Assembly: GCF_015207455.1 (NCBI RefSeq)
Contig: NZ_JADEWV010000028.1
Coordinates: forward strand, 1-46,251
Direction of reading: 5' to 3'
Length of the DNA stretch: 46,251 nt
DNA from: Microcoleus sp. LEGE 07076
Lineage (GTDB): Bacteria > Cyanobacteriota > Cyanobacteriia > Cyanobacteriales > Microcoleaceae
Part shown: piece after piece, positions 10,880-33,826 of the stretch
Layout: each line of letters starts with the position of its first letter
How positions within the stretch are numbered: position 1 is the first letter of the stretch
Translations under genes and position numbers: made by a program
The notes under the pieces: model-generated
Database searches by the model: none
What the model saw: only the letters and a program-made list of their open reading frames with translations
What the model was told of the DNA's origin: nothing

Positions 10880-11033
10880 AGGGGTTACTCCTAAACTAAA
10901 TAAGAGTGGAGGTTGCCAAGGTATTTAGTAATTGGCATAACCTACTTGACCAATTACATAGGAGAATTGCTCTCTAAATGAGTAGTGCGGTGGCTGGACG
11001 CTACATTTGTAATATTCAGCATTTCACCCTAAG

Positions 11034-11051
11034 ATGAAATTAGGATGAAAT
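11034..11051 (-). promoter_or_regulatory. Copper-regulon box 1 (upstream of copA)
   Basis: Read on the minus strand this is ATTTCATCCTAATTTCAT, two ATTTCAT half-sites 11 bp apart, the spacing of tandem OmpR-family regulator sites. It lies between the atx1 stop and the copA start, oriented toward copA. Matching copies are at 11494, 12758, 16601 and 26237. Confidence 0.8.
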
Positions 11052-11095
11052 AGCTGTATTGCTAAAGTTAGAAACCGCTGACGTTTGTCTTAACA

Positions 11096-11290
11096 TTAAT
11101 CGACTGGATAACCAGCAGATGCGATCGCTTTTCTAACCTCACTTTCCGATTTAGCGGTTTGAACCGTGACCGCTTTTGTCTTGAGATCCACCTCAACAGT
11201 GGCGTCTGAGTCCACTGTTTGGACTGCTTTTGTGATTGTAGTCGCACAAGCAGAACAAGCCATTTTGGGAACTTTTAATTGTAGAGTCAT
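11096..11290 (-). CDS. atx1: Atx1-like copper chaperone (HMA domain)
   Basis: A 64-residue single HMA domain with the ferredoxin-like beta-alpha-beta-beta-alpha-beta pattern and the metal site MACSAC (Cys12 and Cys15). Cyanobacterial Atx1 delivers Cu(I) in the cytosol to CopA-type ATPases, and copA lies just downstream on the same strand. The loop lacks the more common Gly-Met-Thr. The ~200 bp between this gene and the DUF305 gene holds a GAGATTTGAGATTT repeat and box 2; no other gene is visible there. Confidence 0.9.
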   Translation of the reverse strand: MTLQLKVPKMACSACATTITKAVQTVDSDATVEVDLKTKAVTVQTAKSESEVRKAIASAGYPVD

Positions 11291-11493
11291 AATTTAAACC
11301 TCAGCAGAAACTACTCTGCTCAATAAATGAATTAACTTCATTGTAAACTCTCCTGCTTACAGGAGAGTCAAGTCAAATTGAGATTTGAGATTTGAGATTT
11401 ATACCGATTCTACTTGTAGGGTAAGCATTGCACGCCTTACGTATTTATTTAAATGATGGCTAAGTAATAATTATTTACAAATCTGAATCAAAA

Positions 11494-11511
11494 ATTTCAT
11501 CCTAATTTCAT
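11494..11511 (+). promoter_or_regulatory. Copper-regulon box 2 (upstream of DUF305 gene)
   Basis: Perfect ATTTCATCCTAATTTCAT, ending 54 nt before the ATG of the CopM-like gene. This is the position expected for an activator bound next to the -35 region. Confidence 0.85.
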
Positions 11512-11565
11512 TTATATGTGAAAACATCAAGATAAATGGTAGTTTTAAGAATCTAACTAAAGTCT

Positions 11566-12276
11566 ATGAAATCAATCTCATTACAAACAGGCTTTGCAGT
11601 GCTGACATTAACCGCCCTCACCAGCGGCGTGCTAGTAGCTTGTTCAAAAGCTCCTTCCAGCGAAACCCAAGCGCCAAATATTACGGCAGCAACCCCTGCT
11701 AGCAGCCAGCAAAATATGGCACAAGGTGGCGGCATGGGTGGGATGAATCATGGCATGGATCATAGTATGTCTATGGATTTAGGCCCGGCTGATGCCGACT
11801 ATGATTTGCGATTTATTGATGGCATGAAAGTACACCATCAAGGTGCTGTAAACATGGCTAAAGAGGTGCTGGCAAAATCCAAACGTCCTGAAATGAAAAA
11901 ACTGGCTACTAATATAATTGCCGCTCAAAACCGCGAAATTAATCAAATGACAGAGTGGCGAAAAACTTGGTATCCCAAAGCCAGCAGTACGCCAATGGCT
12001 TATCACGGTAAAATGGGTCACATGATGGCAATGACTCCAGAACAGATGCAAAGCATGATGATGAGCATGGATTTAGGTGCTGGTGACGACCAATTTGATT
12101 TGCGGTTTCTGAATGCCATGATTCCCCACCACGAAGGAGCTTTGGTGATGGCCGAAGATGCTTTAAAAAAATCGAAGCAGCCAGAAATGAAAAAATTATC
12201 TCAACAAATTTTGACTTCACAAAAGCAAGAAATTGAGCAAATGAAAGAGTGGCGCAAAGCCTGGTACAAACAGTAA
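11566..12276 (+). CDS. copM: CopM-like lipoprotein with two DUF305 domains
   Basis: A 236-residue exported protein. The N-terminus ends in a lipobox-like LVAC (Cys26). Two DUF305 four-helix units follow, each with DLRFxxxMxxHHxGA (DLRFIDGMKVHHQGA, then DLRFLNAMIPHHEGA), and a Met/His-rich stretch (GGGMGGMNHGMDHSMSM) precedes the first. Met and His side chains in this family bind Cu(I) outside the cytoplasm; Synechocystis CopM is the reference. Box 2 sits just upstream, so copper induction is likely. A decayed copy of the last ~24 codons follows at 12348. Confidence 0.88.
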   Translation: MKSISLQTGFAVLTLTALTSGVLVACSKAPSSETQAPNITAATPASSQQNMAQGGGMGGMNHGMDHSMSMDLGPADADYDLRFIDGMKVHHQGAVNMAKEVLAKSKRPEMKKLATNIIAAQNREINQMTEWRKTWYPKASSTPMAYHGKMGHMMAMTPEQMQSMMMSMDLGAGDDQFDLRFLNAMIPHHEGALVMAEDALKKSKQPEMKKLSQQILTSQKQEIEQMKEWRKAWYKQ

Positions 12277-12347
12277 TTTAGCATCACAAATAAAATGTGA
12301 GATAAAGCTACAATATCAGTGACATAAGTCACAGTAGGTCAAGAGTT

Positions 12348-12418
12348 CAGGAAATACTTGCTTCACAAAGACAAGGAATTGAGGACATGAAAAAGTGGCA
12401 GCAAGCTAGCTATCAAGA
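12348..12418 (+). pseudogene. Relic of a second DUF305 gene 3' end
   Basis: The frame beginning at 12348 reads QEILASQRQGIEDMKKWQQ and then ASYQEG. It lines up with QQILTSQKQEIEQMKEWRK-AWYKQ, the last residues of the DUF305 protein upstream. There is no start, no upstream domain and no stop at the matching place. It is best explained as the tail of a tandem DUF305 duplicate whose body has been deleted. Confidence 0.7.
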
Positions 12419-12553
12419 AGGATATAGCTGTCAGCATTTTTCCGACTGCACAGCACTTTCATTTTTTTACGTGAGAATACTCTTGACAATTGAGAACGCA
12501 TCCGTCTAAAGTATGAAAGTCACTCAAAAGCTCTCATAACAGGGGAATAATTA

Positions 12554-12751
12554 ATGAGCTCGAACAGCTTGGAATTAAGCACTACTTATCTACCAAATTC
12601 AGTGTTAGAGCAGCTAGCGCTCGCATTGACAAAGGAAATGGAAGCGCCAGCAGAGAACGCTACACGAGTAAAAAAGTTACAGCGCCATCCCTTTTCATTA
12701 GGCACAACTTATCTGAACATTTTGGAATCGGGAGGGCATCTGGGTTGCTGA
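12554..12751 (+). CDS. Small hypothetical protein
   Basis: A 65-residue frame with ATG preceded by AGGGGAATAATTA, a plausible ribosome binding site, and by TTGACA at 12483. The product is soluble, with a helix around VLEQLALALTKEMEA. I do not recognise the family. It lies between the DUF305 relic and cusB, in a decayed stretch, and may be a chance frame; the ribosome binding site is the main reason to list it. Confidence 0.35.
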   Translation: MSSNSLELSTTYLPNSVLEQLALALTKEMEAPAENATRVKKLQRHPFSLGTTYLNILESGGHLGC

Positions 12752-12757
12752 GGTGAA

Positions 12758-12775
12758 ATTTCATCCGAATTTCAT
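12758..12775 (+). promoter_or_regulatory. Copper-regulon box 3 (upstream of cusB)
   Basis: ATTTCATCCGAATTTCAT, one base different from the consensus in the spacer. It ends 165 nt before the chosen cusB start. Confidence 0.75.
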
Positions 12776-12940
12776 TTGGCTGTACAAGACTAGGTTGAGG
12801 AGAGTAGTTTTAGCTCTTGGTCATTGCTTAGCGATCGCTTCTGGGAAAATTCTAATAAGTATACCCGCTGAATTCGGTTTACTTAGTTTGGCAAAGTACC
12901 AATCGCTAAACCTTTGGCACTCAACCGGATCTTAAGGAAA

Positions 12941-14893
12941 ATGCCAACGATGATATTTCACAAATATACTCAATCTCCTGCTATTATTAGCAGTTGTTCA
13001 GTAACTTTGTTCAGCCTGATTTTGCTAACTTCTCCCGCCCCTGTTTTAGCCCACGCGGGACACGGAGATGAATTTCACCAAAGTGGCGAAACAACCCAAA
13101 TTCCGGCTGCTATTTCTGTCGATGCTGAAACCTCGAAGCGAATCGGAATCAAAGTCGAGCCGGTGAAAGCTCAGCGGTTGTCTGTCGGGATTAAAACTAC
13201 CGGACAAATTGAAACTCTGCCAAATCAAAAAGTAGAAGTTCGGGCTCCCGTTAGTGGGACTGTGGTTGAGTTGCTCGTCAAACCGGGGGACAAAGTATCA
13301 AAAGGTCAACCTGTTGTTGTTTTATCGAGTTCGGAATTAGGCCAATTGCGGGTTGAGTCTCTGTCGAAACGAGCCGAAGCTGAAGGCGATTTGCAGCAGG
13401 CGCAGGCTGACTTTAGGTTAGCTGGAGAAAATTACGATCGCCAACTGCAAATATCAGACGCAGAAATCACCCAAGCCAAAACTCAACTGACAGCAGCAAC
13501 TCAGCAATACCAGCGAGAGCAAGAATTAGTAAACAAGCGTTCGGTTGTGAAAGTTAGTAAAGAAAACTATCAACGTCAAGTTGAAATAGCGCAAGCGGAA
13601 ATAGCGCAAGCCGAAACAGAATTAACTGTTGCCAAAGAACAGCTCGATCGCGACAAAGAATTAGTGGCCGCAGGGGCGATCGCGCGGCGGACAATGCTGG
13701 AATCGCAAGCCCACTTCGCCCAAGCAAAAGCCGCTGTTGCTAAGGCAAAAAGCCGTCCCGAAGTTATCAAAGCCGAAACCGAAATTAAACAAGCCGAAGT
13801 AGACCTCCCGATGCGCGAATTGCGCGATTCTCAAGGCAGAGTTGCCGAAGCGAAAGCTCTACTCACCAAAGCTTTGAGCCGCCGGGAAGTGCTAGAAGCA
13901 GAGGCCCAATTAAAACGCGCTAAATCTGCGGTAGAAGTAGCTCAGTCCCGAATTAACCTCAGCAATTCAGCTTATCAAGCGCGCCTGCAACAACTGGGAA
14001 TTACCGCTAACGATCGAGGGCTTGTTACCATTGTCGCTCCGATTTCCGGCACTGTTGCCGATCGCGAAATCACTCCAGGCGAATCAGTCAACTCGGCTGA
14101 AAAACCGCTGATGAGCATATTAAACGATAGCAGGGTTTTTGCCACAGCAAATATTTACGAAAAAGATTTAAATCAGATAAAGATTGGTCAGGTAGTCAGG
14201 GTTAAAATTACAAGTTTGCCCGATCGCACTTTTACGGGAAAAGTTAGCTTCATTGGGTCGATTGTAGGAGAAGAAACGCGGGTAGTTCCAGTGAAAGCCG
14301 AACTCAATAACTCTGAAGGAGAGTTAAAGCCGGGGATGTTTGTAGAGTTGGATATCTTAACTGACAAAACAGCAACAGATGTTTTGGCAATTCCGGCTGC
14401 TGCTTTAGTTGAAGCCAACGGCAAAAAAATGGTTTACATTCAAAATGGCAATGCCTTTCAGTCAGTTGAAGTTGAAGTTGGTCAAACTTCTGGGGATTTA
14501 GTAGAAATTAAAAGCGGTTTGTTTGAGGGAGATGCGATTGTTACGCAGCGCGCACCTCAACTTTATGCTCAATCTTTGCGGGGCGGCAGTAAACACTCAA
14601 AAACTGAGGACAAGAAGGAAGTAACTCCCAAAGTAACAGAGGTTAATTTGAATAATTTACCAGTTCCTTTGTGGGCGGGAATTGGGGGAGGAATTGCGAT
14701 CGCATCCCTAACTTTTGCCGCCGGTGCCTTCTGGGGAAATCGGCGCAAATTACCAACTATAGCAGCGGATTCTAAAAACAATGCTTTTTCCGTCTCCTCC
14801 GCAGCACTAAATGCGAGTACAGTAGATGAATTGCCGCATGATGACAACCACCGCGTTAAAAATCAGGAGGCAGAAGTCAAGATTTCAAAGTAA
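12941..14893 (+). CDS. cusB: RND efflux periplasmic adaptor (CusB/CzcB type)
   Basis: A 650-residue membrane-fusion protein linking an RND pump to an outer-membrane channel. It has a signal sequence ending near APVLAHA, a HAGHG motif, a lipoyl-like half domain (VRAPVSGTVVELLVKPGDKV), and a very long Ala/Gln/Glu-rich coiled-coil hairpin (about residues 130-330). The second lipoyl half (VAPISGTVADREITPGE) and beta-barrel follow. The C-terminus carries an extra membrane-like segment, LWAGIGGGIAIASLTFAAGA, not usual for adaptors. A TTG at 12914 and an ATG at 12950 are alternative starts; AAGGA upstream suits 12941 or 12950. Box 3 suggests copper control. The pump gene is 1.9 kb downstream, separated by an unrelated minus-strand cassette. 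Confidence 0.88.
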   Translation: MPTMIFHKYTQSPAIISSCSVTLFSLILLTSPAPVLAHAGHGDEFHQSGETTQIPAAISVDAETSKRIGIKVEPVKAQRLSVGIKTTGQIETLPNQKVEVRAPVSGTVVELLVKPGDKVSKGQPVVVLSSSELGQLRVESLSKRAEAEGDLQQAQADFRLAGENYDRQLQISDAEITQAKTQLTAATQQYQREQELVNKRSVVKVSKENYQRQVEIAQAEIAQAETELTVAKEQLDRDKELVAAGAIARRTMLESQAHFAQAKAAVAKAKSRPEVIKAETEIKQAEVDLPMRELRDSQGRVAEAKALLTKALSRREVLEAEAQLKRAKSAVEVAQSRINLSNSAYQARLQQLGITANDRGLVTIVAPISGTVADREITPGESVNSAEKPLMSILNDSRVFATANIYEKDLNQIKIGQVVRVKITSLPDRTFTGKVSFIGSIVGEETRVVPVKAELNNSEGELKPGMFVELDILTDKTATDVLAIPAAALVEANGKKMVYIQNGNAFQSVEVEVGQTSGDLVEIKSGLFEGDAIVTQRAPQLYAQSLRGGSKHSKTEDKKEVTPKVTEVNLNNLPVPLWAGIGGGIAIASLTFAAGAFWGNRRKLPTIAADSKNNAFSVSSAALNASTVDELPHDDNHRVKNQEAEVKISK

Positions 14894-14934
14894 AATTTTT
14901 GTTTAATCGAGCACTTATAACTACATGAAATGAC

Positions 14935-15450
14935 TTAAAAAGGGGGAATAGCAGATGGTAAACCAACTCGCATAAATAAACGTGAAAATGCCTGAGAAAA
15001 GTGATCTAGGTAGGGAGATTTTAACCGCCAGCGATCGTTTAAATTACTAGCGTGTTTCAACACATATTCGTAAGGCAAGGTTTGGATATCTCTAAAATCT
15101 ACAACCAGTGCTTCTTTATTATTATCTGGGTTCGTTGGTGATGCCAGCAGGTGCAAACCTTCTATTCTCCCTCTTAAAACTTCATTCCATTTTCCTTTTT
15201 TCTTAAATGCTTCGTTGTTTTCCTCAAATTCTGAAATATGGTAAATTGCACACAGCACTACCTGAGCTACTTTTTTATTGTCCAAATCGCAGCTTTGGGT
15301 TAGAATAATTAAATCTACTTCATTAATTTCTATTTGTACGTTTTGAATTTCACTATTTTTGCCAAAACTTGTTGGGTCAAATACTGGTCTTGGTACGAGA
15401 CACCCAGGCAGGTAATCACCTTGCCTGAGAGTGGATTCATTTATCTGCAC
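14935..15450 (-). CDS. Hypothetical protein, third gene of TIGR04255 cassette
   Basis: A 171-residue soluble protein starting at GTG, 15 nt after the stop of the 97-residue gene. It contains LRQGDYLPGCLVPRP near the start, VDLIILTQSCDLDNKKV in the middle and a C-terminal RLFMRVGLP. The Gln-Ser-Cys-Asp element is the most distinctive piece and could be a functional site, but I do not recognise an assigned function. It is the last gene of a minus-strand operon with the TIGR04255 pseudogene and the 97-residue gene. Confidence 0.7.
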   Translation of the reverse strand: MQINESTLRQGDYLPGCLVPRPVFDPTSFGKNSEIQNVQIEINEVDLIILTQSCDLDNKKVAQVVLCAIYHISEFEENNEAFKKKGKWNEVLRGRIEGLHLLASPTNPDNNKEALVVDFRDIQTLPYEYVLKHASNLNDRWRLKSPYLDHFSQAFSRLFMRVGLPSAIPPF

Positions 15451-15467
15451 CCAGAAAGGCTCTACGA

Positions 15468-15761
15468 TTATTCTTCATCGAAGATATACGGCAGAGGTTT
15501 TTTACGCCCTTTGAACTGAGCTCGCATGATTACTCGTTCCGATCGCTTTGGTGGTACTGGATTGTAGTCTATTTCGCCACAGCTTTCTAGAGTTTGTAAG
15601 TATTGTTTTACAACTGTTAAATTCTGCAATAATTGAGCGGTTAGTGCTGCAATTTCTCGTCCTTCAGGACTTTGTAATTGAGCTGTGGCTTTTGGCTCTA
15701 ACACCAGCAATCTTGGTGACGATAAAACGCCATTAGGACGTAGGGGGGTAATTGTAGCCAT
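15468..15761 (-). CDS. Hypothetical protein, second gene of TIGR04255 cassette
   Basis: A 97-residue protein with a helical centre (EIAALTAQLLQNLTVVKQYLQ) and a basic, Pro-rich C-terminal part ending FKGRKKPLPYIFDEE. Its ATG shares one base with the stop of the TIGR04255 frame (TAATG), so translation is coupled. Family not recognised. The coupling and position suggest that it works with the TIGR04255 product. Confidence 0.7.
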   Translation of the reverse strand: MATITPLRPNGVLSSPRLLVLEPKATAQLQSPEGREIAALTAQLLQNLTVVKQYLQTLESCGEIDYNPVPPKRSERVIMRAQFKGRKKPLPYIFDEE

Positions 15762-16498
15762 TAGTTAATCAACTCCCTTGTGTGTTCTGTAATACAAGCT
15801 TCAAAAGCTCTGTTTTTTTGTTCGTGCATTTGTTCTAAAATCTGCCAAAGCTCTATTTCATCAGAAGAAATATCTCCTTCCAGAAATAGATCTAAATCCA
15901 ATATTATAGAAACAAAATTAGGTGTGGGAGGTGGAACTATTGCTTGATTGATCACAAGCATTGTTCCCAAGTGTTCTTGTGGAATTTGTAGCTGCATAAA
16001 GTAGCCACTTAATCCTTGCGGCAAGTCAGGAGAAACTTCCGGAAATGTCCTCAAATACTCTTTTATATCGCCAATCGGCAAAGGAATATCTAGCCTGTTA
16101 ATATACCTGAGTGCTTAACGAACAATTGCTTCTGGATATGTCAGTGACTGATAGATATTCCACAGTCGCTTTGCTTCATCCCGAAAATTTTCCCAACAGT
16201 CGTAAGGGGCAAGCCAACTGAATGCGAAAGCATCTAAACGCAGTTGAAGAATCTGTTTTGGGTCGTCACCGGAGGCTCTATAGCCAATAGGAGACTGGCT
16301 TGCTGTTGCCCCAACACTAGCACCTGCCATCATTTGTCCCTGAAAAAGTAACACTTCTTCACACTGAGGATACTCAGCCTGAATGCTTGAGTACACCTGC
16401 GCCAAATTGTCAAGTTTAACTCCTGGTGGAAGTTTAACTTGTATATCAATTAAGGCTTCGGTGATTGGGGCGTGCGAGTAGTGTTTTGGTGCTTGCAT
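15761..16498 (-). pseudogene. TIGR04255 family gene with in-frame TAA
   Basis: The ATG at 16498 opens MQAPKHYSHAPITEALIDIQ, the typical start of the TIGR04255 family (sporadically distributed, about 250 residues, function unknown). The frame stops at TAA (16115-16117) after PEAIVR and continues without a shift as ALRYINRLDIPLPIG, then LRTFPEVSPDLPQGLSGYFM, to a normal end at 15761. A single TTA-to-TAA change would explain the stop (expected RLALRYINR). Without it the protein would be 245 residues, the usual family length. Alternatives are a sequencing error or translation as two pieces; a TTG at 16081 could restart the second half. Confidence 0.75.
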
Positions 16499-16600
16499 AA
16501 TAACTATTGTAAGCTGCTTTGTCAAAAAGAGCAACACTGGTTATATCATTTAAGATTTGAGATTTTAGATGACTTATTAATCAAGGTGGGAAGTCAAAAT

Positions 16601-16618
16601 ATTTCATCCTAATTTCAT
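16601..16618 (+). promoter_or_regulatory. Copper-regulon box 4 (upstream of RND relic and cusA)
   Basis: Perfect ATTTCATCCTAATTTCAT. It ends 64 nt before the vestigial RND start at 16683 and 190 nt before the intact cusA start. The short distance to the relic matches box 2 and box 5, so the box may originally have served the lost gene. Confidence 0.8.
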
Positions 16619-16682
16619 TTGAGGGTGTCAATCTAAATTGAATGGCTATTTAACCGTCAACTGTCAACTGTCAACTATTTAA

Positions 16683-16751
16683 ATGTTCAGCACAATTCTC
16701 AGATGGGTAATTAACCGCCGCTGGGTATCAGAAGTCAAGAGTTTGAAGTGA
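16683..16751 (+). pseudogene. Vestigial N-terminus of an RND transporter gene
   Basis: A 22-codon frame, MFSTILRWVINRRWVSEVK plus three residues, resembles the first 15 residues of the downstream pump (MLNSILKWSIAQRWL). Similarity ends after RRWV and a stop follows at 16749. It looks like the remnant of a second RND gene or a deletion scar. It is too short for certainty. Confidence 0.55.
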
Positions 16752-16808
16752 AAAATTGCTTCTTAACTGAGGCAAAATTTTAATAATTATAAATTCATTG
16801 TCTAAAAA

Positions 16809-19800
16809 ATGCTTAATTCAATCCTCAAATGGTCGATCGCTCAACGTTGGTTAGTTGTAATCGGTGCAATTATAGTCACTGTTTTGGGTAGTTATAATTT
16901 AACTAAAATGCCCCTTGATGTTTTTCCTAATTTTGCCCCGCCTCAAGTAGAAATTCAAACAGAAGCCCCAGGATTAGCCCCTGAAGAGGTAGAGTCTTTA
17001 ATTACCTTACCAATTGAGAGCGCAGTCAATGGAACTCCGGGGGTAGAAACTGTGCGCTCCTCTTCGGCGGTAGGTATTTCAGTTGTCAAAGTAATTTTCA
17101 AAGCCGATACAGATATTTATCGAGCGAGACAATTAGTTGCTGAACGTTTACAGCAAACGCGATCGAAGTTGCCTCAAGGTGTTGAAGAACCACAAATCTC
17201 TCCTGTTTCTTCTCCGATAGGCACAATTTTAATGTATGCCTTTACCATAAAAGCAGAAGAAAATCAGCCAAGAACTGATTTAATGGAAGTGCGAAGATTA
17301 GTCGATCGAAATGTTACCAACAGATTACTGGCTGTGCAGGGAATATCACAGGTGATTGCCTATGGAGGCGATGTCAGAGAGTATCAAGTTTTAGTAGATC
17401 CAGTCAAATTAACTGCATTGAATATCTCTTTAGAAGAGGTGACAAAAGCAGCAGAGCAATCAAATACCAATGCGTCTGGGGGATTTTTGATTACACCCGA
17501 TCGCGAAGAAATCATTCGCGGCGTAGGTCGGATTGAAACCATTCAAGAATTGGCAGAATCAGTAGTAATATCTAGGAATGGAAAACCCATCAAACTGCGC
17601 GATGTGGCAGAGGTAAAGTTAGGAGCAGCACTAGCTAGAGGAGATGGTAGTGTCAACGGTCAAAGGGGAGTCATTTTACTGGTAAACAAGCAGCCTCAAA
17701 TCGATACTCCAACTGTAACCAGAGCCGTTGAAAAAGCAATGGAGGAAGTGCAGGCCGGATTGCCGAAAGATGTGAAAGTAGAAGTGACTTTTCGCCAAGA
17801 AAGTTTTATTGATTCGGCGATTGAAAATGTGCGAAATTCCCTGCGAGATGGCATTATAATTGTTTCAGTAATCATGGTAATGTTTTTGATGAATTGGCGC
17901 ACAACTGTAATCACTCTTAGCGCAATTCCCTTGTCTATTTTGATCGGAATGTTAATTTTATCATGGTTTGGAGAAGGCATAAACACTATGACTTTGGGCG
18001 GATTGGCAGTAGCGATTGGTTCAGTTGTGGATGACTCAATTGTCGATATGGAAAACTGCTATCGAGGATTGCGAAAAAATCAATTAGAGGGCAAGCCTAA
18101 AGACGATTTTGAAATTGTTTACCGCACTTCGGTAGAGGTTCGCACCAGTGTAATTTTCTCTACGGTAATCATTGTGATTGTATTTGCGCCGATTTTCTCT
18201 TTGACAGGAGTAGAAGGACGGATCTTTACCCCAATGGGAGTGGCTTACTTAGTTTCTATTCTTGCCTCTACTTTTGTTGCAATGACTCTTTCACCTGCCC
18301 TTTGCGCTATCTTATTAGCAAATCGTAAATTGCCATCGGATGATACTTGGGTTTCGGCATTAAGTCAACGGCTTTATCGTCCAGTTTTGAATATGGCAAT
18401 TAATCGTCCTAAATTAATCTTGTTCCCCGCGATAGCTGCTTTTATTGCTTCATTAATTGTGCTTCCCTCACTAGGAAGAGTATTTTTACCCGAATTTCAA
18501 GAGCGGTCTTTAGTTAATACAATGTTACTTTATCCTGGGAGTTCTCTGTCTGCTACTAATGACATGGGACTTTCAATGCAGAATGCTCTCAAAGACGATC
18601 CTCGATTTACCGCTGTACAATTGCGATCGGGACGTGCGCCCGGTGATGCTGATGCAGCAGGGGTAAATTTAGGACATTTGGATGTAGAACTCAGCGATAT
18701 TGGTATTAAGAATCGAGAACAAAGTATTGCTAAAATTAGAGAGGAATTTAATAAATTACCCGGTGTGGCTACTAGCGTGGGAGGCTTTATTTCCCATCGT
18801 ATGGACGAAGTGCTTTCAGGAGTGAGAAGTGCGATCGCTGTGAAAGTTTTTGGTACTGATTTGACAGAATTAAGAGCTATTGGTAAGGAAGTAGAAACGG
18901 CGATGAGTCAAGTCGAAGGTATTGTTGATTTGCAGTTAGAACAACAAATTCCTATTCGTCAGTTACAGATTAAATTTGATCGCGCTTTGGCGGCACGTTA
19001 CGGACTTAGCATTGGAAGTATTACAGAAACTCTAGAAACTGCATTGAATGGAAAAGTCGTCTCTCAAGTCCTTAAAGAACAGCAGTTATTCGATCTGTTG
19101 GTGTGGTTGAAACCGGAAAATCGCAGTAATATTGATACTATCCGCAACTTGTTAGTTGATACTCCTTCGGGACAGAAGATCCCACTAGCACAAGTCGCAA
19201 AAATTGAATACGGCACTGGCCCTAATACTATCAACCGCGAAAATGTTTCTCGTTTCTTAGTTGTGGCTGCGAATGTGTCAGGACGAGATTTACGCTCAGT
19301 TGTTAATGAAATTAAGACCAAAGTACAACAGCAGGTAATTTTGCCTTCAGGTTATTTTATTCAGTATGGCGGACAATTTGAATCGGAAGAACGAGCAACC
19401 CAAAACCTACTTATATTTGGTAGCTTAGGAATAGTAATTATTGCAGTGCTGATGTATTTTGCCGTAAAATCTTTTGGAAGTGCGATTATGATTATGATTA
19501 ACTTACCCCTGGCATTAGTAGGAGGTATTTTCTCTATTGCGATCGGTAGTGGCATCATTTCTGTAGCTTCACTTGTGGGTTTTATCACTTTATTTGGAGT
19601 CGCGGTTCGTAACGGTTTGCTTTTGGTGGATAATTTTAATCAAAAAGCAAGCAAGGGAATGCCTTTCAAGGAAATAATTAAAGAAGGTGCAATGGAAAGA
19701 TTGGTAGCCATTTTGATGACAGCTTTTACCTCGGCTTTAGGCATGGTTCCCCTGGTAGTTGGTACAGGCGCGGGCAAAGAAATTTTGCAACCTCTGGCAG

Positions 19801-19907
19801 TTGTGGTGTTGGGTGGGTTGTTTACTTCTACGGCCTTGACGTTACTGGTTCTGCCAGCTTTGTATTCAATGTTTGGGAAGTTTTTATTTAATAAAACGAG
19901 TTTATGA
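16809..19907 (+). CDS. cusA: Heavy-metal RND efflux pump (CusA/CzcA type)
   Basis: A 1032-residue inner-membrane proton-driven pump with the duplicated RND layout: one N-terminal helix, a large periplasmic loop, six helices, a second loop and six more helices. The fourth helix carries DDSIVDMEN (Asp408, Asp409, Asp413, Glu415), the acidic cluster used by heavy-metal RND pumps for proton coupling. Together with the CusB-like adaptor, copper ATPase and DUF305 protein it most likely exports copper or silver. Cobalt, zinc or nickel cannot be excluded from sequence alone. No outer-membrane factor gene is present here, so a TolC-like protein elsewhere is implied. Confidence 0.9.
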   Translation: MLNSILKWSIAQRWLVVIGAIIVTVLGSYNLTKMPLDVFPNFAPPQVEIQTEAPGLAPEEVESLITLPIESAVNGTPGVETVRSSSAVGISVVKVIFKADTDIYRARQLVAERLQQTRSKLPQGVEEPQISPVSSPIGTILMYAFTIKAEENQPRTDLMEVRRLVDRNVTNRLLAVQGISQVIAYGGDVREYQVLVDPVKLTALNISLEEVTKAAEQSNTNASGGFLITPDREEIIRGVGRIETIQELAESVVISRNGKPIKLRDVAEVKLGAALARGDGSVNGQRGVILLVNKQPQIDTPTVTRAVEKAMEEVQAGLPKDVKVEVTFRQESFIDSAIENVRNSLRDGIIIVSVIMVMFLMNWRTTVITLSAIPLSILIGMLILSWFGEGINTMTLGGLAVAIGSVVDDSIVDMENCYRGLRKNQLEGKPKDDFEIVYRTSVEVRTSVIFSTVIIVIVFAPIFSLTGVEGRIFTPMGVAYLVSILASTFVAMTLSPALCAILLANRKLPSDDTWVSALSQRLYRPVLNMAINRPKLILFPAIAAFIASLIVLPSLGRVFLPEFQERSLVNTMLLYPGSSLSATNDMGLSMQNALKDDPRFTAVQLRSGRAPGDADAAGVNLGHLDVELSDIGIKNREQSIAKIREEFNKLPGVATSVGGFISHRMDEVLSGVRSAIAVKVFGTDLTELRAIGKEVETAMSQVEGIVDLQLEQQIPIRQLQIKFDRALAARYGLSIGSITETLETALNGKVVSQVLKEQQLFDLLVWLKPENRSNIDTIRNLLVDTPSGQKIPLAQVAKIEYGTGPNTINRENVSRFLVVAANVSGRDLRSVVNEIKTKVQQQVILPSGYFIQYGGQFESEERATQNLLIFGSLGIVIIAVLMYFAVKSFGSAIMIMINLPLALVGGIFSIAIGSGIISVASLVGFITLFGVAVRNGLLLVDNFNQKASKGMPFKEIIKEGAMERLVAILMTAFTSALGMVPLVVGTGAGKEILQPLAVVVLGGLFTSTALTLLVLPALYSMFGKFLFNKTSL

Positions 19908-19909
19908 TT

Positions 19910-19960
19910 CGGCGGTTGAAACCGTGTCTAAACAAACAAAGTCGGCCTGCGCCGACTGGT
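19910..19960. repeat. CGGCGGTTGAAACCG repeat with GTCGGCCTGCGCCGAC hairpin
   Basis: A short repeat ending in a perfect 7-bp hairpin AGTCGGC-CTGC-GCCGACT, placed right after the cusA stop, where it can terminate transcription. A second copy is at 34566-34615. The remaining intergenic bases to 20189 contain an ACACAGAG microsatellite and GATCGATCGG-rich sequence, with no gene. Confidence 0.65.
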
Positions 19961-20189
19961 TTATAAATTGGATGAGTAACCCGGATTTGGGCTCGTATCA
20001 TATCGTTTGCGCTTGCATCGGAATGATTTAACCACAGAGAACACAGAGTACACAGAGGGAGAGAATATATATCTGAATCATTCCGATGCTACCGGATTTG
20101 ATATCATGTCCGATCGATTACCCGCGATCGATCGGACACCATATCACCTCTAGCGGGCCGGCACAGAATCAAACAGCCCTAGCGGTTAA

Positions 20190-22178
20190 TTAGACTGCAC
20201 GTTCTGTCAATTTTGTCAAGACGTTGTTCGATCGCTCCACAAAATCTTTCATTCCTTCAGCATCGAAACCCTTCTGGGCCATCAAAGCCAAGTCATAAAC
20301 GTGGTGACAAATCATACTCGCCAACTGCGCCGAGGGAGACTCGCCGCCACTTTGAATAATCGCACCTTGACTCAAATTAGCCAGATTTTGAATCAGCGGG
20401 TGAGACGTATTCACCAGCAAAACGTGTTCTTCGGGGAATTCGGCCGCTTGCTGCTGCAATAGCGCCGTCATATCCCGCATCCGGCGCAAAGCTTCCGGTA
20501 ACAGGACGATCGCAGGTGGCGCCCCCTCTGCAGAGTCAGCCTTCAAAGCTTCGGTGCGGATGTTCACTTTCGGCTTGTTGAGAGCATTTTGGAACATTTC
20601 TTTAACTTGTTCGCTGCGAGTTTTATTGGTCGCCGGATCGACTATTTCCGCTTCTTTTTCTTTGTCAATTAGCGTGTCGTCGATGTCAGAATCAACCCGC
20701 GAGAATTTAACATCCGAATATTCTCGTTCCAAGAAACTGATAAAGTGCGTGTCGATGAAAGAATCCATAAACAGCACTTCCAAACCTTGGCTTTTGTGCA
20801 GGGCGACGTAAGTTGCTTGAGAAGCCGGCTCTGTGCAGTAAAACACGCGATTTTCGTGGCGTTTTTGATTGCGTTCCAAATACTCTTTCAGCGTGGTGTA
20901 AGGCTGCGTCGAACCGGAACTTTCCGACTTTGGAGTCACATCTTGCCACAAATCTCCTTCCTCGGTTTGCACCTGCACTTCGGGAGTTGCAGTTTCTGGT
21001 TTTTCCGATGTTGGCTCGTAGGTGCTGCGGTAGATTAAAATATCTTCGATTTGCTTTTTGAACTTGTCGTCGTTGAGGGCTCCGAATTTGACAAAAGTGC
21101 CGATATCTTGCCAGCAGCGGATGTACTCATCGCGATCGTCCCGGTAAAGTTCCTTGAGGCGATCGCCCACTTTTTTCGCAATATAATCAGCAATTTTCCT
21201 TACAGTGCGGTTGCTTTGCAAAGAACTCCGAGAAACGTTCAGCGGAATGTCGGTACTGTCAATCACGCCCCGCAGCGGCATCAAGAATTTCGGGATAATT
21301 TCTTCGCAGTGATCGCTGACAAAAACCTGGTTGCAAAATAGCTTGATATTGCCTTGGGTAACATCGACATCGGGCCGCAGTTTCGGAAAGAACAGAATCC
21401 CGTTAACAATAAAAGGATAATCTGTATTCAGGTGTACCCACAGCAGCGGTTCCTCTTGGAACGGGTAAAGGTAGCGGTAGAGTTCCAAATAATCTTGTTT
21501 CTGCAAGTTGCTGGCTGATTCCCGCCAGATTGCTTTGTGTTTGTTGAGTTCCTCTCCCTCAAATTTGATCGGAACTGGCATGAAATCGCAGTAGGTTTTG
21601 ACTAACTGCTTGACCCGGCTGGCTTCTACATATTCGAGTTCTTCATCCTGGAGTGTGAGAGTAATTGTAGTGCCGCGTTCTGTGCGGGTGGATTCTGATA
21701 GTTCAAAAGCGGGGGAACCGTCGCAAGACCAGTGTACTGCTTGGGAACCTTCTTTGTAGGAAAGAGTGTCAATGTCTACTTTCTGCGCGACCATGAAAGA
21801 AGAGTAGAAACCGAGTCCGAAGTGACCGATAATTGCATCGTCGCCGCTACCTTGGTATTTTTGAATAAATTCTTCGGCGCTGGAGAAAGCGACTTGGTTG
21901 ATGTATTTTTTTACCTCGTCGGCGGTCATGCCGATGCCGTTATCGGAAATTGAGAGGGTTTTGTTTTCTTTGTCGATCGCAATGTTGATTTGTGGTTCGC
22001 CAATGTCGCCGCTGTATTCGCCCGTTCGAGAAACCATTTTGAGTTTGGCAATGGCATCGACGGCGTTAGAAATTAGTTCCCGCAAGAAGACTTCGTGGTC
22101 TGTGTATAGCGACTTCTTGATAATCGGGAAAATATTCTCGGTATGGATAGAGATTGTTCCCTGTTCTAAAACTGTCAT
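20190..22178 (-). CDS. htpG: Molecular chaperone HtpG (Hsp90)
   Basis: A 662-residue Hsp90. The N-terminal GHKL ATP-binding domain shows LISNAVDAIAKL and DNGIGMTADE, then the GHFGLGFYSSFMVA lid motif. The middle domain has LNVSRSSLQSNRTV with the catalytic-loop arginine, and there is a normal C-terminal dimerisation domain, without the MEEVD tail of eukaryotes. The cytosolic chaperone refolds stress-damaged proteins and in cyanobacteria supports phycobilisome and tetrapyrrole enzymes under heat. No CIRCE element was noticed upstream; the intergenic region is filled by microsatellites. Confidence 0.95.
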   Translation of the reverse strand: MTVLEQGTISIHTENIFPIIKKSLYTDHEVFLRELISNAVDAIAKLKMVSRTGEYSGDIGEPQINIAIDKENKTLSISDNGIGMTADEVKKYINQVAFSSAEEFIQKYQGSGDDAIIGHFGLGFYSSFMVAQKVDIDTLSYKEGSQAVHWSCDGSPAFELSESTRTERGTTITLTLQDEELEYVEASRVKQLVKTYCDFMPVPIKFEGEELNKHKAIWRESASNLQKQDYLELYRYLYPFQEEPLLWVHLNTDYPFIVNGILFFPKLRPDVDVTQGNIKLFCNQVFVSDHCEEIIPKFLMPLRGVIDSTDIPLNVSRSSLQSNRTVRKIADYIAKKVGDRLKELYRDDRDEYIRCWQDIGTFVKFGALNDDKFKKQIEDILIYRSTYEPTSEKPETATPEVQVQTEEGDLWQDVTPKSESSGSTQPYTTLKEYLERNQKRHENRVFYCTEPASQATYVALHKSQGLEVLFMDSFIDTHFISFLEREYSDVKFSRVDSDIDDTLIDKEKEAEIVDPATNKTRSEQVKEMFQNALNKPKVNIRTEALKADSAEGAPPAIVLLPEALRRMRDMTALLQQQAAEFPEEHVLLVNTSHPLIQNLANLSQGAIIQSGGESPSAQLASMICHHVYDLALMAQKGFDAEGMKDFVERSNNVLTKLTERAV

Positions 22179-22205
22179 ACTTCTTCGCTAGGTATTTTTT
22201 AAGAG

Positions 22206-22412
22206 TCAGCAGTCATTAGTCATTAGTCAGTAGTTATCAGTTATTGGTTATTGGTTATTGGTTATTGGTTATTGGTTATTAGTCAACTATCAACTATCAA
22301 CTAAGAGGGCCCGCACGGGGCACCGCCCCTACCAACTGACAACTAAGAGGGCCCGCACGCACCATCCACCGCCCCTACCAACTGTCAACTGTCAACTGTC
22401 AACTGACTAATG
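22206..22412. repeat. Mixed heptamer repeats upstream of htpG
   Basis: Successive tracts of AGTCATT, TTATTGG (at least five units), ATCAACT and GTCAACT, with two copies of GAGGGCCCGCACG separated by about 40 bp. No gene is visible between 22179 and 22498. Confidence 0.85.
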
Positions 22413-22498
22413 ACTATTTATTGATTTTGGGCGATCGCGCTACCTTTTGCCAAAGGGATTACCACAAAAAAATGATTCGGTTTCCCCCACATCATAAC

Positions 22499-23863
22499 TC
22501 ACAAAGGCAACCGCAGCAGAAAGGTGCTGCCAAAACCCACTTGGCTGCGGGCGCTGAGGCTGCCGCGGTGTGCCCGGGCGATGGTTTGGGCGATCGCCAA
22601 TCCGAGTCCCGAACCGCCGGTATGGCGCGATCGATCGCTGTTGACTCGGTAAAATCGATCGAATATGCGCGCTAAATCTGCCTCCGCTATCCCAAAGCCG
22701 GTATCTTGGACCTGAATTATCGCCTCCTGGTGACTGCAATCTAAAATCGCTGTTACTTTTCCCCCAGCCGGAGTGTATTGAATGGCATTGACAATTAAAT
22801 TAGTAACTAAACGGTAAAGTTGATCGGCATCGCCAACAACCTTCAATTGCTGCTGTACGCGGATTTCGGATATTAGCGCTACCTCGGAGGATCTCGCCAC
22901 AACTGCCAATTCCTCGACTAAATCGCTAACCAAGTCGTTCAAACAGCAAAGTTGAGGGCGATCCTCTTCGAGGGCTTCGCTAACGGATTTTGCTCCATCG
23001 TTGGTTTGAGAGTCCATGCGTGCTAGCAGTAATAAATCGGTAACTAACTGAGTCAATCTGCGGTTTTGGCGATCGATCGTCCGCAAAATTTCTCGTGCTT
23101 CTTTTTCATCTAATTGAGGCATCAACAAAGCCGATTCTACAGTTGCTTGAGATGCCGCTAAAGGCGTCCGCAATTCGTGGGCAGCATCCGCTGTAAACTG
23201 TTGGATTTGTCGGTAGGAAGCATAAATCGGTTTCATTGCCAATCCTGCCAATAACCAGCTAGAAAAGGCGATCGAAATCAATGCAGTCGGCAATCCTAAT
23301 TTCAAAATCAATTTAACTGTATTGAGATAATTGTGGAAATCTTGCAAGCTGCGCCCTACTTGAAAATATCCCCAATCTTCCTGGGTTTTAGTGTGCAGAG
23401 CCACAGAAATTTGATGGTAAATATTGCCTTTTATGTCAGTTATAGTTTGCCAGTATTGGGGATTGAATGTCGGCGGCAATGTTGCGGGATAAGTCCCTGC
23501 TGTGGCAATTAAATTACCTGAATAATCGAACAAACGAATATAGTAATAACTTTGGTCGAGCGCCGTTAAAATATGTCGATTGGGCTGCGATTTTTTCCAG
23601 CCGTTAACCCCAGTAACGCGGAGGTTAGGCAAAAGTTCGTTAACTATTGGTTCGAGTTTTCCAGGCTGCTGCAATTTGATTTCGAGGCTGTCGTGCAGCG
23701 TCCCGGCAACTGATGCTAATTCCCTGTCTATGGCTACCCAGTGAGCGTGGGCGATCGCCTTGTATACCCCAAATCCTAACAAGCTCAAAATTAAACCCAT
23801 GACTGCGGCATAGGAAATCGCTAAGTGCGATCGAGTTCGGTTAAATAGTTTATTTTGATTCAT
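22499..23863 (-). CDS. rppB: RppB/NrsS-type sensor histidine kinase
   Basis: A 454-residue membrane kinase. It has an N-terminal helix (YAAVMGLILSLLGFGVYKAI), a ~160-residue periplasmic sensor, a second helix (LPTALISIAFSSWLLAGLAM), HisKA with FTADAAHELRTPLA (His229), and the N box (LVTNLIVNAIQYT), G1 (DTGFGIA) and G2 (GGSGLGLAI) motifs of the ATPase domain. In Synechocystis the related RppB/NrsS and CopS kinases sense redox, nickel or copper. The partner regulator is 228 bp upstream on the same strand. Given the copper genes nearby and the shared box, metal sensing is plausible but not shown. Confidence 0.85.
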   Translation of the reverse strand: MNQNKLFNRTRSHLAISYAAVMGLILSLLGFGVYKAIAHAHWVAIDRELASVAGTLHDSLEIKLQQPGKLEPIVNELLPNLRVTGVNGWKKSQPNRHILTALDQSYYYIRLFDYSGNLIATAGTYPATLPPTFNPQYWQTITDIKGNIYHQISVALHTKTQEDWGYFQVGRSLQDFHNYLNTVKLILKLGLPTALISIAFSSWLLAGLAMKPIYASYRQIQQFTADAAHELRTPLAASQATVESALLMPQLDEKEAREILRTIDRQNRRLTQLVTDLLLLARMDSQTNDGAKSVSEALEEDRPQLCCLNDLVSDLVEELAVVARSSEVALISEIRVQQQLKVVGDADQLYRLVTNLIVNAIQYTPAGGKVTAILDCSHQEAIIQVQDTGFGIAEADLARIFDRFYRVNSDRSRHTGGSGLGLAIAQTIARAHRGSLSARSQVGFGSTFLLRLPL

Positions 23864-24091
23864 TTAAACTTACATTTTGCACAATTCCTTCTACTGGTTC
23901 CCCGACTATGCCAATTAGTAACAACTTAAGACTGAAGCGCATAATAAATGTCGCTTTTATTCTAGTCGAGCTCCCCCTCGCATCCCCCTTAATAAGCAGG
24001 GTGGATCTAGATTTCGATACAAACAAGAGAGACTATCCCTTTGAGGTTAACTGGAAACGAGATATAATCCGCCGCCGTTGCCCGCCCTAAT
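23864..24091. other. Intergenic spacer with fragment of CCCCCTCGCATCCCCCTTA repeat
   Basis: The spacer between the kinase and regulator holds one half of a repeat (CCCCCTCGCATCCCCCTTA, about 23969-23988) whose complete hairpin form is at 30333-30389. A 60-codon plus-strand frame here has no supporting features. Confidence 0.5.
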
Positions 24092-24781
24092 TTAATTTTT
24101 CATCCGGTATCCGATACCATGTACGGTTTCAATCAAATTCGCGCAGCCAAATGATTCTAGTTTGCGCCGCAACAAGCGCACTTGAGCTGCTACCACATTG
24201 CTAAACGTATCTGCACTAGCCTCCCATAGCTGATTCCGAATTTGGTCAGTGGTAACAATTTGGTTGGGATGTTTCATAAAATATTCTAGCAGTTGAAATT
24301 CTTTGTTTGTCAGAGAAATTATCTGGTTTTTACCATTTTTATCGAGATGACAAGCAGTGCGATTTCCGCAGTCTAAAATTAGATTGCCGATTTGTAGCTG
24401 TTGGGGCTGAATTTGGGGCGATCGCCTCTGCAAAGCCCGCAACCTTGCTAACAGTTCCGCCATCCCGAAGGGCTTGACTAAATAATCGTCAGCCCCCGCA
24501 TCCAATCCAGCTACTTTATCTTCCATCCTATCTTTTGCCGTCAGCATCAAAACTGGCAATGCGCTATTTTTTGCGCGCAATCTCCGCAGCAATTCCAATC
24601 CTGACAATCCCGGTAGCAACCAGTCAAAAATAGCCAGATTGTATTGAGTCCAATGACTATCTAAATATTCCCAAGCTTCACAGCCATCCTGCGCCCAGTC
24701 AACTATATATTTTTCGTGCTTCAAAGTGCGATCGATCGCTTTTCCTAAATCTGGCTCGTCTTCAACTAACAAAACTCTCAT
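24092..24781 (-). CDS. rppA: RppA/NrsR-type OmpR-family response regulator
   Basis: A 229-residue regulator starting MRVLLVEDEPDLGKAI. The receiver has Asp53 in LAIFDWLLPGLSGLELL as the phosphorylation site and the VKPFGMAELLARLRALQRR linker. A C-terminal winged helix follows (TNKEFQLLEYFMKHPNQIV, then NVVAAQVRLLRRKL). The tryptophan after the phospho-Asp (DWLLPG) is typical of the RppA/NrsR/CopR branch. The frame extends upstream to 24838, but receivers begin at this Met, so I set the start at 24781. It is the best candidate in the window to bind the five ATTTCAT direct-repeat boxes; that link is inferred. Confidence 0.88.
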   Translation of the reverse strand: MRVLLVEDEPDLGKAIDRTLKHEKYIVDWAQDGCEAWEYLDSHWTQYNLAIFDWLLPGLSGLELLRRLRAKNSALPVLMLTAKDRMEDKVAGLDAGADDYLVKPFGMAELLARLRALQRRSPQIQPQQLQIGNLILDCGNRTACHLDKNGKNQIISLTNKEFQLLEYFMKHPNQIVTTDQIRNQLWEASADTFSNVVAAQVRLLRRKLESFGCANLIETVHGIGYRMKN

Positions 24782-24884
24782 AACTCTCAAATTTCTAGGG
24801 GGGAAACAATAATAATCTTGCCCCCTCCCCTGATTCAAGGGGAGGCTTAGGGTGCGGTGCTTTGTATTTTTGCAACAGTTCTCT

Positions 24885-25355
24885 TTAGTAGGTTTGAATT
24901 AAAACTATACCCAGGGGAATTGCTGCATTTATTCCCACCATTTTACCAGATATCGCGGACATCCAATTGCGAGTGTTACCAGGAGTGTCAACACCCCGTA
25001 TATCAATTGATATAGTGGTATCAGGAGCAACAGGTTGCGCGAAAACCACTATCGCTTTTCAGTCATTAACCGAAACTTGAGACTCGATTTTTTGACCAGA
25101 TTTATTTGTAACCTCAATTGGGCTACGCATTCTGATATCTGCCGGAAAATTAATTGTCAGCGCTGAAACACATTTTCCCTGAACCTGAACTTTAAAATGA
25201 TGGGTAGCACCCTGACAACGAGCTTTGTTGGGATGTACACCACTGTGTATCAAGTGACGAACATTCACATTTCGCATTGCTCATCCTGCAACTATAGGGG
25301 AGGCATTAGATGCTAGCACAAATGTCAAGACAGCAGCGTAAATTAACTTTTTCAT
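24885..25355 (-). pseudogene. DUF2808-like exported protein gene with two in-frame TGA codons
   Basis: From the ATG at 25355 the frame reads a signal peptide (MKKLIYAAVLTFVLASNASP), then TGA (25281-25283). It continues as AMRNVNVRHLIHSGVHP through HHFKVQVQGKCVSALTINFP, then a second TGA (25059-25061) after SQVSVND. It goes on as KAIVVFAQPVAPDTTISIDI and RGVDTPGNTRNW to TAA at 24885-24887. The late part looks like DUF2808, a cyanobacterial exported domain. No frameshift is needed; only the two TGAs interrupt 157 codons. Most likely a recent pseudogene or base errors. Confidence 0.7.
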
Positions 25356-25685
25356 TCCGGTACTTACTGAAAAATTGACTAATTTATTATGTTATTTATT
25401 AGCTTGATTTTCAGGGATGAAATTGCGATTGAACTTTCTATACTAAAATTAGTAGGTACAAAGATATTCTGGCGATAATCCAACTCAAAATCAACCCTGT
25501 TCATCAAATAAGCTGTTGCAGCATTTAAACTGTATGCCAAAAAACAATAAAAATCTTGTGGGCCGTTGCTCTGAGCAGCGCCCTGAACATACAATGTTTA
25601 TTTGTTCGACAGCTTAAACTGGGTTGATACTGTTCGACATAGTTGACATAACCCATAACCAAGACTGCATTAATCAATTAGCTAT
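25356..25685. other. Intergenic region without convincing gene
   Basis: A 71-codon minus-strand frame (25379-25594) is present, but it is Asn/Ile-rich, has no good ribosome binding site and no recognisable domain. I found no repeat or regulatory motif strong enough to report. Confidence 0.4.
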
Positions 25686-26189
25686 CTATTGCTTAAACGT
25701 AAAGCGACCATCAACTTTTTCTCCGTTAATATCCGCATTCATTTTCACAGCATAACTTCCTGCCTCTTGACCTGGAAACAGAACAGTGTAATGTTTGCCA
25801 TCAGGGTCGTATTTGAGTGCTAGATTTTGCTGTTTGCCATTAGGTAACTGCACTTGAGCTGTCACTTTTGCATTGGGAACTGGTTCGTGTTTGTCGCCTT
25901 TTTGCAAATAAAAATCTAAATGAGTTCCGGTAGCTTCTTTCTCAGCTAAAAACTCTAAGTGGTAAGCTCCAGACTCAACAACTTGACCTCCTTTAGATGC
26001 GTTAGGATGACCAGTTTTATCGGCTGCGACTGGGGCAGCACTAGGAGCAGAAGATGCAGGTTTAGAGGCGACTGGAAAGGATGTTAAGCTGCTATTTGCA
26101 TCACTTTTTTCGTCGCCTTTGCCACAAGCCCCCAAAAATAGTAATCCGACAGTGCCTAGAACAATTAAATTTGATTTGATGGTTTTCAT
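25686..26189 (-). CDS. Copper-regulon lipoprotein, YtkA/FixH-like
   Basis: A 167-residue exported lipoprotein starting MKTIKSNLIVLG, with lipobox LGAC (Cys20), an Ala/Ser/Pro-rich linker, and a C-terminal beta-rich domain. The domain includes GAYHLEFLAEKEATGTHLDF, PNAKVTAQVQLPNGKQ and AGSYAVKMNADINGEKVDGR. The pattern of polar beta strands with PNAKVTAQV recalls the YtkA/FixH-like domain found beside metal efflux systems. The start was chosen at 26189 because a normal signal peptide begins there; the frame is open to 26234. Box 5 lies 47 nt upstream, which ties it to the copper genes. Confidence 0.75.
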   Translation of the reverse strand: MKTIKSNLIVLGTVGLLFLGACGKGDEKSDANSSLTSFPVASKPASSAPSAAPVAADKTGHPNASKGGQVVESGAYHLEFLAEKEATGTHLDFYLQKGDKHEPVPNAKVTAQVQLPNGKQQNLALKYDPDGKHYTVLFPGQEAGSYAVKMNADINGEKVDGRFTFKQ

Positions 26190-26236
26190 TTGATGTAATT
26201 TTTGGGTACAATTATTCCGAATAATAACACCCAAAG

Positions 26237-26254
26237 ATGAAATTAGGATGAAAA
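26237..26254 (-). promoter_or_regulatory. Copper-regulon box 5 (upstream of lipoprotein)
   Basis: Minus-strand TTTTCATCCTAATTTCAT, with one mismatch to the consensus at the first base. It lies 47 nt upstream of the lipoprotein ATG, a spacing close to that of box 2. The remaining bases to 26518 have no gene. Confidence 0.78.
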
Positions 26255-30620: not shown

Positions 30621-30659
30621 ATCTTTCCAAGTTCTTGACATTTACGATCTAGAGTGAAA
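30621..30659 (+). promoter_or_regulatory. 39-bp upstream element, copy C
   Basis: Differs from copy A at only a few positions (TTTACGATCTAGAGTG in place of TTTATCATCTAGAGTG). It ends 30 nt before the ATG at 30690. Confidence 0.72.
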
Positions 30660-30689
30660 CTGCCAAAGTACGATAACCCGATCGCAAAA

Positions 30690-33764: not shown

Positions 33765-33826
33765 AATTTTACAAATCTGCAACAGTAAGTAGAATATTAA
33801 TAATTTGTTTCTAAAAGTGGGAATTT

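Follow-up and report, generated by a model that had tools for sequence, protein, structure and literature searches.

A putative CopR-type operator and promoter element shared by the five units of a copper island in Microcoleus sp. LEGE 07076

The closest described counterpart of the system considered here is CopRS of Synechocystis sp. PCC 6803, whose regulator CopR is reported to activate the copM and copB operons in response to copper (PMC4182526, PMC13421787); activation of the cop promoters is described also in PMC4284471, where the third gene of copBAC is named CopC (slr6044). According to PMC4182526, the control exerted by CopRS appears to be limited to copMRS and copBAC, with ctaA, pacS and atx1 lying outside it, and the putative CopR sequence is printed as TTCATN4-5TTCAT. 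A related layout is that of the PHO box, two 7-nt direct repeats 4 nt apart to which PhoB binds head-to-tail (PMC4415409). Here we analyse 46,251 nucleotides from the filamentous cyanobacterium Microcoleus sp. LEGE 07076 (NCBI RefSeq assembly GCF_015207455.1, contig NZ_JADEWV010000028.1, positions 1 to 46,251, forward strand; hereafter the window), in which five copies of an 18-bp direct repeat precede genes of a copper island. We argue that this repeat is very probably an activator operator of the CopR type, read by the RppA response regulator of the same island and serving five units.

The first-pass annotation of this DNA had proposed five intergenic copies of the repeat, facing copA, the DUF305 gene, cusB, a supposed cusA/RND relic and a lipoprotein gene, and a scan of the window with the pattern ATTTCATCCNAATTTCAT recovers all five with the same coordinates, strands, targets and mismatch counts (Table 1). 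At up to three mismatches, the window holds five matches against 0.10 expected, and none of 100 dinucleotide shuffles reached five. No operator lies inside a called window open reading frame (ORF) of at least 70 amino acids (aa), a 60-aa mechanical frame (12753-12935) overlapping operator 3; operator 1 sits between the copZ-like gene and copA. Distances from operator to start codon range from 47 to 190 bp (copA 154 bp, copM 54 bp, cusB 165 bp to the ATG at 12941 or 168 bp to 12944, cusA 190 bp, lipoprotein 47 bp to the ATG at 26189). The copM product scores 130.6 with NF049983, against a curated cut-off of 90. Operator 4 does face the RND gene, but this gene is no relic, given that its product is an intact CusA/CzcA-family protein of 1032 aa (TIGR00914, E 1.9e-250). 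The layout of the repeat is better given as 7+4+7, ATTTCAT-N4-ATTTCAT; the proposed spacing of 11 bp between half-sites stands, but two half-sites suit one head-to-tail dimer and not the tandem dimers invoked earlier.

Table 1 Features of the copper island, in window coordinates
Feature	Coordinates	Strand	Description
copA	8624..10879	-	P1B copper ATPase, N-terminal HMA domain
Operator 1	11034..11051	-	ATTTCATCCTAATTTCAT; faces copA; extended -10 TG..A...T behind, hexamer 11018-11023
copZ-like HMA chaperone	11096..11290	-	64 aa; upstream of copA on same strand
Operator 2	11494..11511	+	Faces copM (DUF305); -10 hexamer 11522-11527
copM	11566..12276	+	DUF305, NCBIfam CopM family metallochaperone
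Operator 3	12758..12775	+	ATTTCATCCGAATTTCAT, one change; faces cusB; -10 hexamer 12786-12791
cusB/copB	12941..14893	+	RND periplasmic adaptor (family search run from 12944)
Operator 4	16601..16618	+	Faces cusA; -10 hexamer 16629-16634
cusA	16809..19907	+	Intact heavy-metal RND pump of the CusA family; 73% identity to CopA of pSYSX
rppB (CopS-type)	22499..23863	-	Histidine kinase and likely the sensor; 51% identity to CopS of pSYSX
rppA (CopR-type)	24092..24781	-	OmpR-family response regulator, likely binder
DUF2808 gene remnant	24888..25355	-	Interrupted by two in-frame stops; 73% identical to its counterpart in relative G012
Decayed operator	25417..25434	-	3/14 positions changed, second half-site intact
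Lipoprotein	25686..26189	-	Homologue of protein behind CopA on pSYSX
Operator 5	26237..26254	-	TTTTCATCCTAATTTCAT, one change; faces lipoprotein; -10 hexamer 26221-26226
Kinase paired with RR2	32505-33782	-	Same island
RR2 response regulator	33827-34504	-	Same island; pairs with the kinase above

On pSYSX of Synechocystis the gene order is copM, rppA (CopR), rppB (CopS), adaptor, pump and small protein, and the same operator stands before copM (ATTTCATCCTGATTTCAT, exact) and before the adaptor gene copB (ATTTCATCTTGGTTTCAT, one of 14 positions changed), at 7336 and 10043 of locus L167; both copies are then followed by TG..A...T, and no further place with up to three changes was found in the 16.7 kb examined. 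These are the two promoters at which CopR is reported to act in response to copper, which supports the proposal that the five sites of the window probably form a copper regulon.

In the 6,793,430 bases of the Microcoleus genome, ATTTCATCCNAATTTCAT occurs at 43 places at up to three mismatches: four exact and one with a single mismatch (the five operators, which are the only places within one mismatch), one with two, and 37 with three. The looser ATTTCAT-N4-ATTTCAT has four exact occurrences, all in the window, and six with one change, these being operator 5 and five places elsewhere. A composite pattern of operator and promoter (see below) matches 24 places at up to three mismatches, 18 of them with three, and at up to one mismatch it finds the five operators only. 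Many copies at unrelated genes, which the first-pass annotation had named as telling against a regulon, were therefore not found across the genome. Two candidate extra targets were rejected: the two-mismatch ATTTCATCCNAATTTCAT site (C170:10675) sits inside a 465-aa ORF, and a composite site on contig C69 has no same-strand ORF of at least 70 aa within 600 bp downstream. The latter (13431-13464, region L257) is the genome's sole other composite match with two mismatches. The presence of five near-identical copies within one 15-kb stretch could also reflect a dispersed repeat or cassette that was copied within the island and has no regulatory role. We regard this as exceedingly improbable, given that flanks differ whereas operator and -10 element are retained, that the corresponding promoters of relatives and of Synechocystis carry such sites as well, and that the genome holds no other copy within one mismatch.

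Conservation extends beyond the repeat itself. We mapped 36 regions (the window and L102-L136) picked for holding the lipoprotein, the regulator or the operator, of which L136, another contig of the Microcoleus genome, was excluded from the two alignments of sites described next. Across 50 non-redundant aligned sites, the conserved positions behind the repeat are T+8, G+9, A+12 and T+16. Among 101 mapped sites, A+12 is present in 100, T+16 in 97 and TG in 85, and the complete TGnnAnnnT stands at its fixed offset in 81, whereas among 19 other offsets tested it occurs zero or one time at 18 and ten times at offset +18. All five window operators carry A+12 and T+16 and four carry TG, which is replaced by TA behind operator 3. 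The second A and last T are the key positions of a -10 hexamer, and we read these columns as a putative extended -10 element whose hexamer begins 10 bp downstream of the repeat, a second part of the signal that was absent from the first-pass annotation. The start point of Synechocystis copM is reported to lie 26 nt upstream of the start codon (PMC4890671); provided that the annotated codon is the one referred to, it maps to +25 (an A), 8 nt past the hexamer. With the start at +25, the repeat extends from about -42 to about -23 and sits where a -35 box would be expected. An initial guess by eye, with the hexamer at +16 to +21, was dropped, as it disagrees with the conserved columns and would leave the reported start only 3 nt away. 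A site in this position would also suit a repressor that covers the -35 region, blocks polymerase and is released by copper. This is very improbable in our judgement, since a repeat in the -35 place ahead of an extended -10 is the activator layout of the PHO box, and CopR is itself reported as an activator (PMC13421787).

The arrangement recurs widely among relatives. In 39 genomes of the genus and order (Microcoleus sp. LEGE 07076 included), the operator was found at up to two mismatches in 37, the lipoprotein in 27 and a close RppA (E<=1e-60) in 33; a reversed control pattern is also present in most of these genomes, at lower numbers. The next same-strand gene behind the 102 sites of the 36 mapped regions is cusB for 30 (four of which really stand before copM), copM for 13, cusA for 13, the lipoprotein for six, rppA for six, copA for three, another gene for 24 and none for seven. 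Six of the 102 lie inside mechanically called ORFs, namely one (in L136) in a 465-aa ORF and five in copM or copZ frames that were probably called too long, four of the latter being booked under cusB.

A natural experiment is provided by the splitting of operons in these relatives, where possession of an own operator by cusA and the lipoprotein gene is tied to separation from the upstream partner. Counting only cusA ORFs of at least 900 aa, leaving out L134-L136, and calling genes split when more than 400 bp apart or when the partner lies outside the fetched stretch, cusA has its own operator in 13 of 14 cases when split from cusB and in none of 13 when contiguous, and the lipoprotein gene has one in 6/10 when split from cusA and in 0/19 when contiguous. 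Among the four split lipoprotein genes that lack an operator, that of L114 has one at -352 across the cut (L083), those of L108 and L128 each stand as a second copy right after a first, and the fourth is in L126. The window shows both splits, cusB from cusA and cusA from the lipoprotein gene. Between cusB and cusA lie small minus-strand ORFs (14935-16537), and ORFs similar to them in size (178-180, 97 and 257-258 aa) occupy the same spot in G011, G012 and G013, where cusA is in all three cases preceded by an operator.

Several observations point to RppA as the reader of the operator, as the first-pass annotation had suggested. Window RppA (NF041734, 411.9 bits against a cut-off of 250) is 65.8% identical to CopR of pSYSX, and the 15 residues SNVVAAQVRLLRRKL, which correspond to the recognition helix of the OmpR family, are identical in the two proteins. 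RppA and CopR share one 14-row group (99/97 support), outside which fall RR2 and the genome's remaining paralogues, and an exact operator stands at most 270 bp upstream of rppA in 10 of 30 orthologue loci. In a class-wide set of 290 genomes, exact ATTTCAT-N4-ATTTCAT occurs in 132 (345 places, versus 20 for the reversed pattern) and RppA (E<=1e-75) in 137; both are present in 105, RppA alone in 32, the operator alone in 27 and neither in 126 (Fisher p 5e-25, kinship ignored, so that this and the other statistics, in which related genomes are treated as independent, overstate independence). Furthermore, of the 29 named loci retrieved using CopR of Synechocystis as query, the operator (at most one change) is present in 22 of 25 from cyanobacteria and in none of four from other phyla. 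When loci were fetched with the operator only (28 loci), 20 of 35 sites among the matches listed lie near a gene of a 13-protein copper set, one of them qualifying by a kinase match alone, and all 20 carry A+12 and T+16. In one locus (L235) a multicopper oxidase relative, 58% identical to a reference from pCHRO.01, follows the operator; two others match at only 23%. S. salina has one close RppA and another at 45%. In region L251 (genome G312, contig C43), overlapping tandem ATTTCATTATA units yield four exact operator matches through simple repetition; these lack A+12 and T+16 and represent a type of false positive worth filtering.

Two other OmpR-family proteins of the genome could conceivably read the operator in place of RppA. 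Orthologues of RR2 and its kinase sit behind a second, operator-bearing cusA in relatives (L103, L110), a gene copy the window lacks, and a paralogue on contig C23 has a similar recognition helix (SNVLAAQIRLLRRKI). The helix of RR2 is, however, strongly different from SNVVAAQVRLLRRKL, and of 108 genomes that have RppA and lack an RR2 orthologue (E<=1e-94; 38 genomes with RR2), 82 carry the operator, as do 23 of 29 with both, as opposed to two of nine with RR2 but without RppA. We rejected RR2 as the binder on helix and co-occurrence. The neighbours of the C23 paralogue within 3.7 kb resemble, by eye, a phosphoesterase and a glutathione transferase. A reader other than RppA thus seems decidedly unlikely. 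The kinase gene rppB (NF041735, 674.4 against a cut-off of 400) is followed directly, on the same strand, by an Hsp90-like gene (20190-22178, named htpG by eye), and htpG homologues are placed likewise in six regions of relatives (L104, L111, L114, L118, L121 and L131; not in others, for example L102, L103 and L120). The island also contains a DUF347 repeat protein gene (30654-31445, plus strand).

Some results weigh against a CopR-type operator read by RppA. Among the 137 genomes with RppA, 32 have no exact operator, and 27 of the 153 without RppA do have one; among the matches listed for the fetch by operator, six of the 15 sites with no known copper gene nearby nevertheless carry A+12 and T+16, which may reflect either as yet unrecognised targets or chance. 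The spacing between TTCAT motifs, here and on pSYSX, is N6, versus the printed N4-5. Additionally, 20 of the 30 rppA loci lack an exact operator within 270 bp, and the 700 bp before window rppA hold no operator with fewer than three of 14 changes, the only copy being the decayed one 653 bp upstream, before the DUF2808 remnant. For want of a good operator here and of an exact one at those 20 loci, autoregulation of rppA in the window is uncertain.

The nature of the signal also requires consideration. The operator could be correctly assigned and yet answer mainly to nickel or photosynthetic redox state, if RppAB worked like Synechocystis NrsRS, which also bears the names RppA and RppB. RppA is listed as the regulator of nrsBACD (PMC13421787), and TTCATN4-5TTCAT is reported also between nrsRS and nrsBACD (PMC4182526). 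The name itself covers both kinds, given that CopR of pSYSX is annotated rppA. We consider a signal other than copper unlikely, because the genes behind the operators are copper genes (for a P1B-type copper ATPase, for CopM and for a pump closely related to CopA of pSYSX), and because copper is reported to induce three copM homologues in Anabaena sp. PCC 7120, one of which lies in the same arrangement of genes as here (PMC4335983).

The lipoprotein was previously drawn into the copper response as an otherwise unannotated protein. Its place in that response is supported by its own operator and by the position of its gene in relatives and appears probable, but a counterpart is in fact known: over 100 residues it is 58% identical to the small protein behind the pSYSX pump, which by gene order would be CopC (slr6044). 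In relatives the gene lies directly behind cusA (at most 400 bp) in 19 of 29 mapped cases, and it is separate in the window. The last 100 residues of the predicted model are confident, and among solved folds the closest is that of Helicobacter pylori CrdA (9ll2, a structure whose title calls it a copper resistance determinant; E 2.2e-4 and target TM 0.71 in Foldseek), although identity is 12% and the tie is by fold only. FetP/FtrA and, lower, CopC copper proteins follow (11-25% identity across these matches), with DUF4426 and unrelated beta-sandwich proteins also among them; a profile search of the lipoprotein against PDB sequences returned no copper protein.

DUF2808 genes are potential further members in relatives, where operators stand 44-90 bp before genes of 155-162 aa, three of the four tested being DUF2808; operators likewise precede genes annotated as DUF2808 on plasmids of Anabaena cylindrica and Gloeocapsa. 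The decayed operator of the window matches the position of an exact operator before the DUF2808 gene of relative G001. The remnant itself lies between the lipoprotein gene and rppA, and its frame is open in relative G012. A full-text literature search for DUF2808 and copper surfaced a single paper, in which All7597 of Anabaena is listed as a DUF2808 exoprotein.

Taken together, the sites and their promoter geometry, their specificity within the genome, their conservation and joint occurrence with RppA, and an operator and helix that match those of Synechocystis CopR lead us to the reading advanced above, in which binding, phosphorylation and activation by RppA, and copper as the signal, are what we infer. 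Under this model, the RppB/CopS kinase would sense copper, most likely periplasmic or lumenal, and phosphorylate RppA, a single head-to-tail dimer of which would occupy both ATTTCAT half-sites and substitute for a -35 box. Bound RppA would then recruit RNA polymerase to the extended -10 TGnnAnnnT, its hexamer 10 bp downstream, and so turn on copper export and capture through copA, copM, cusB, cusA and the lipoprotein; rppAB may also be transcribed by read-through from operator 5. More tentatively, the 34-bp unit ATTTCAT-N4-ATTTCAT-N7-TGnnAnnnT may be a class-wide cyanobacterial mark of copper defence, with DUF2808 proteins as dedicated periplasmic copper handlers, the lipoprotein as a copper chaperone of CrdA-like fold and HtpG as a partner in the copper-sensor operon, an extension that we hold possible, if somewhat short of probable. 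If true, the unit could be used to discover new copper genes.

At PhoB promoters the repeat occupies the -35 region, with the -10 hexamer 10 bp further on. The operators described here share with the PHO box the 7+4+7 direct repeats in the -35 place and the fixed distance to the -10, but differ in half-site (ATTTCAT versus CTGTCAT), in signal and in the conserved TG of an extended -10. In Anabaena sp. PCC 7120, copM (all7633) likewise stands opposite a metallochaperone and a copper ATPase gene and upstream of two RND genes (PMC4335983). The closest likeness is to the CopRS regulon of Synechocystis, with the same operator at matching promoters, a regulator with an identical recognition helix, and homologous CopM, CopB, CopA and downstream lipoprotein. 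In contrast to Synechocystis, the operator of the window also precedes the copper ATPase gene, the genes are split into five units, copM stands apart from rppAB, and DUF2808 genes come as additions in relatives. The type of system is already known from Synechocystis, and new here are copA and DUF2808 genes as members, the promoter element and the pattern of operon splitting. A half-site pattern that we found in print for Synechocystis only becomes a defined operator and promoter from which members of cyanobacterial copper regulons can be predicted. A copper ATPase joins the predicted regulon, as do a CopC-like lipoprotein that has an operator to itself and, among relatives, DUF2808 proteins.

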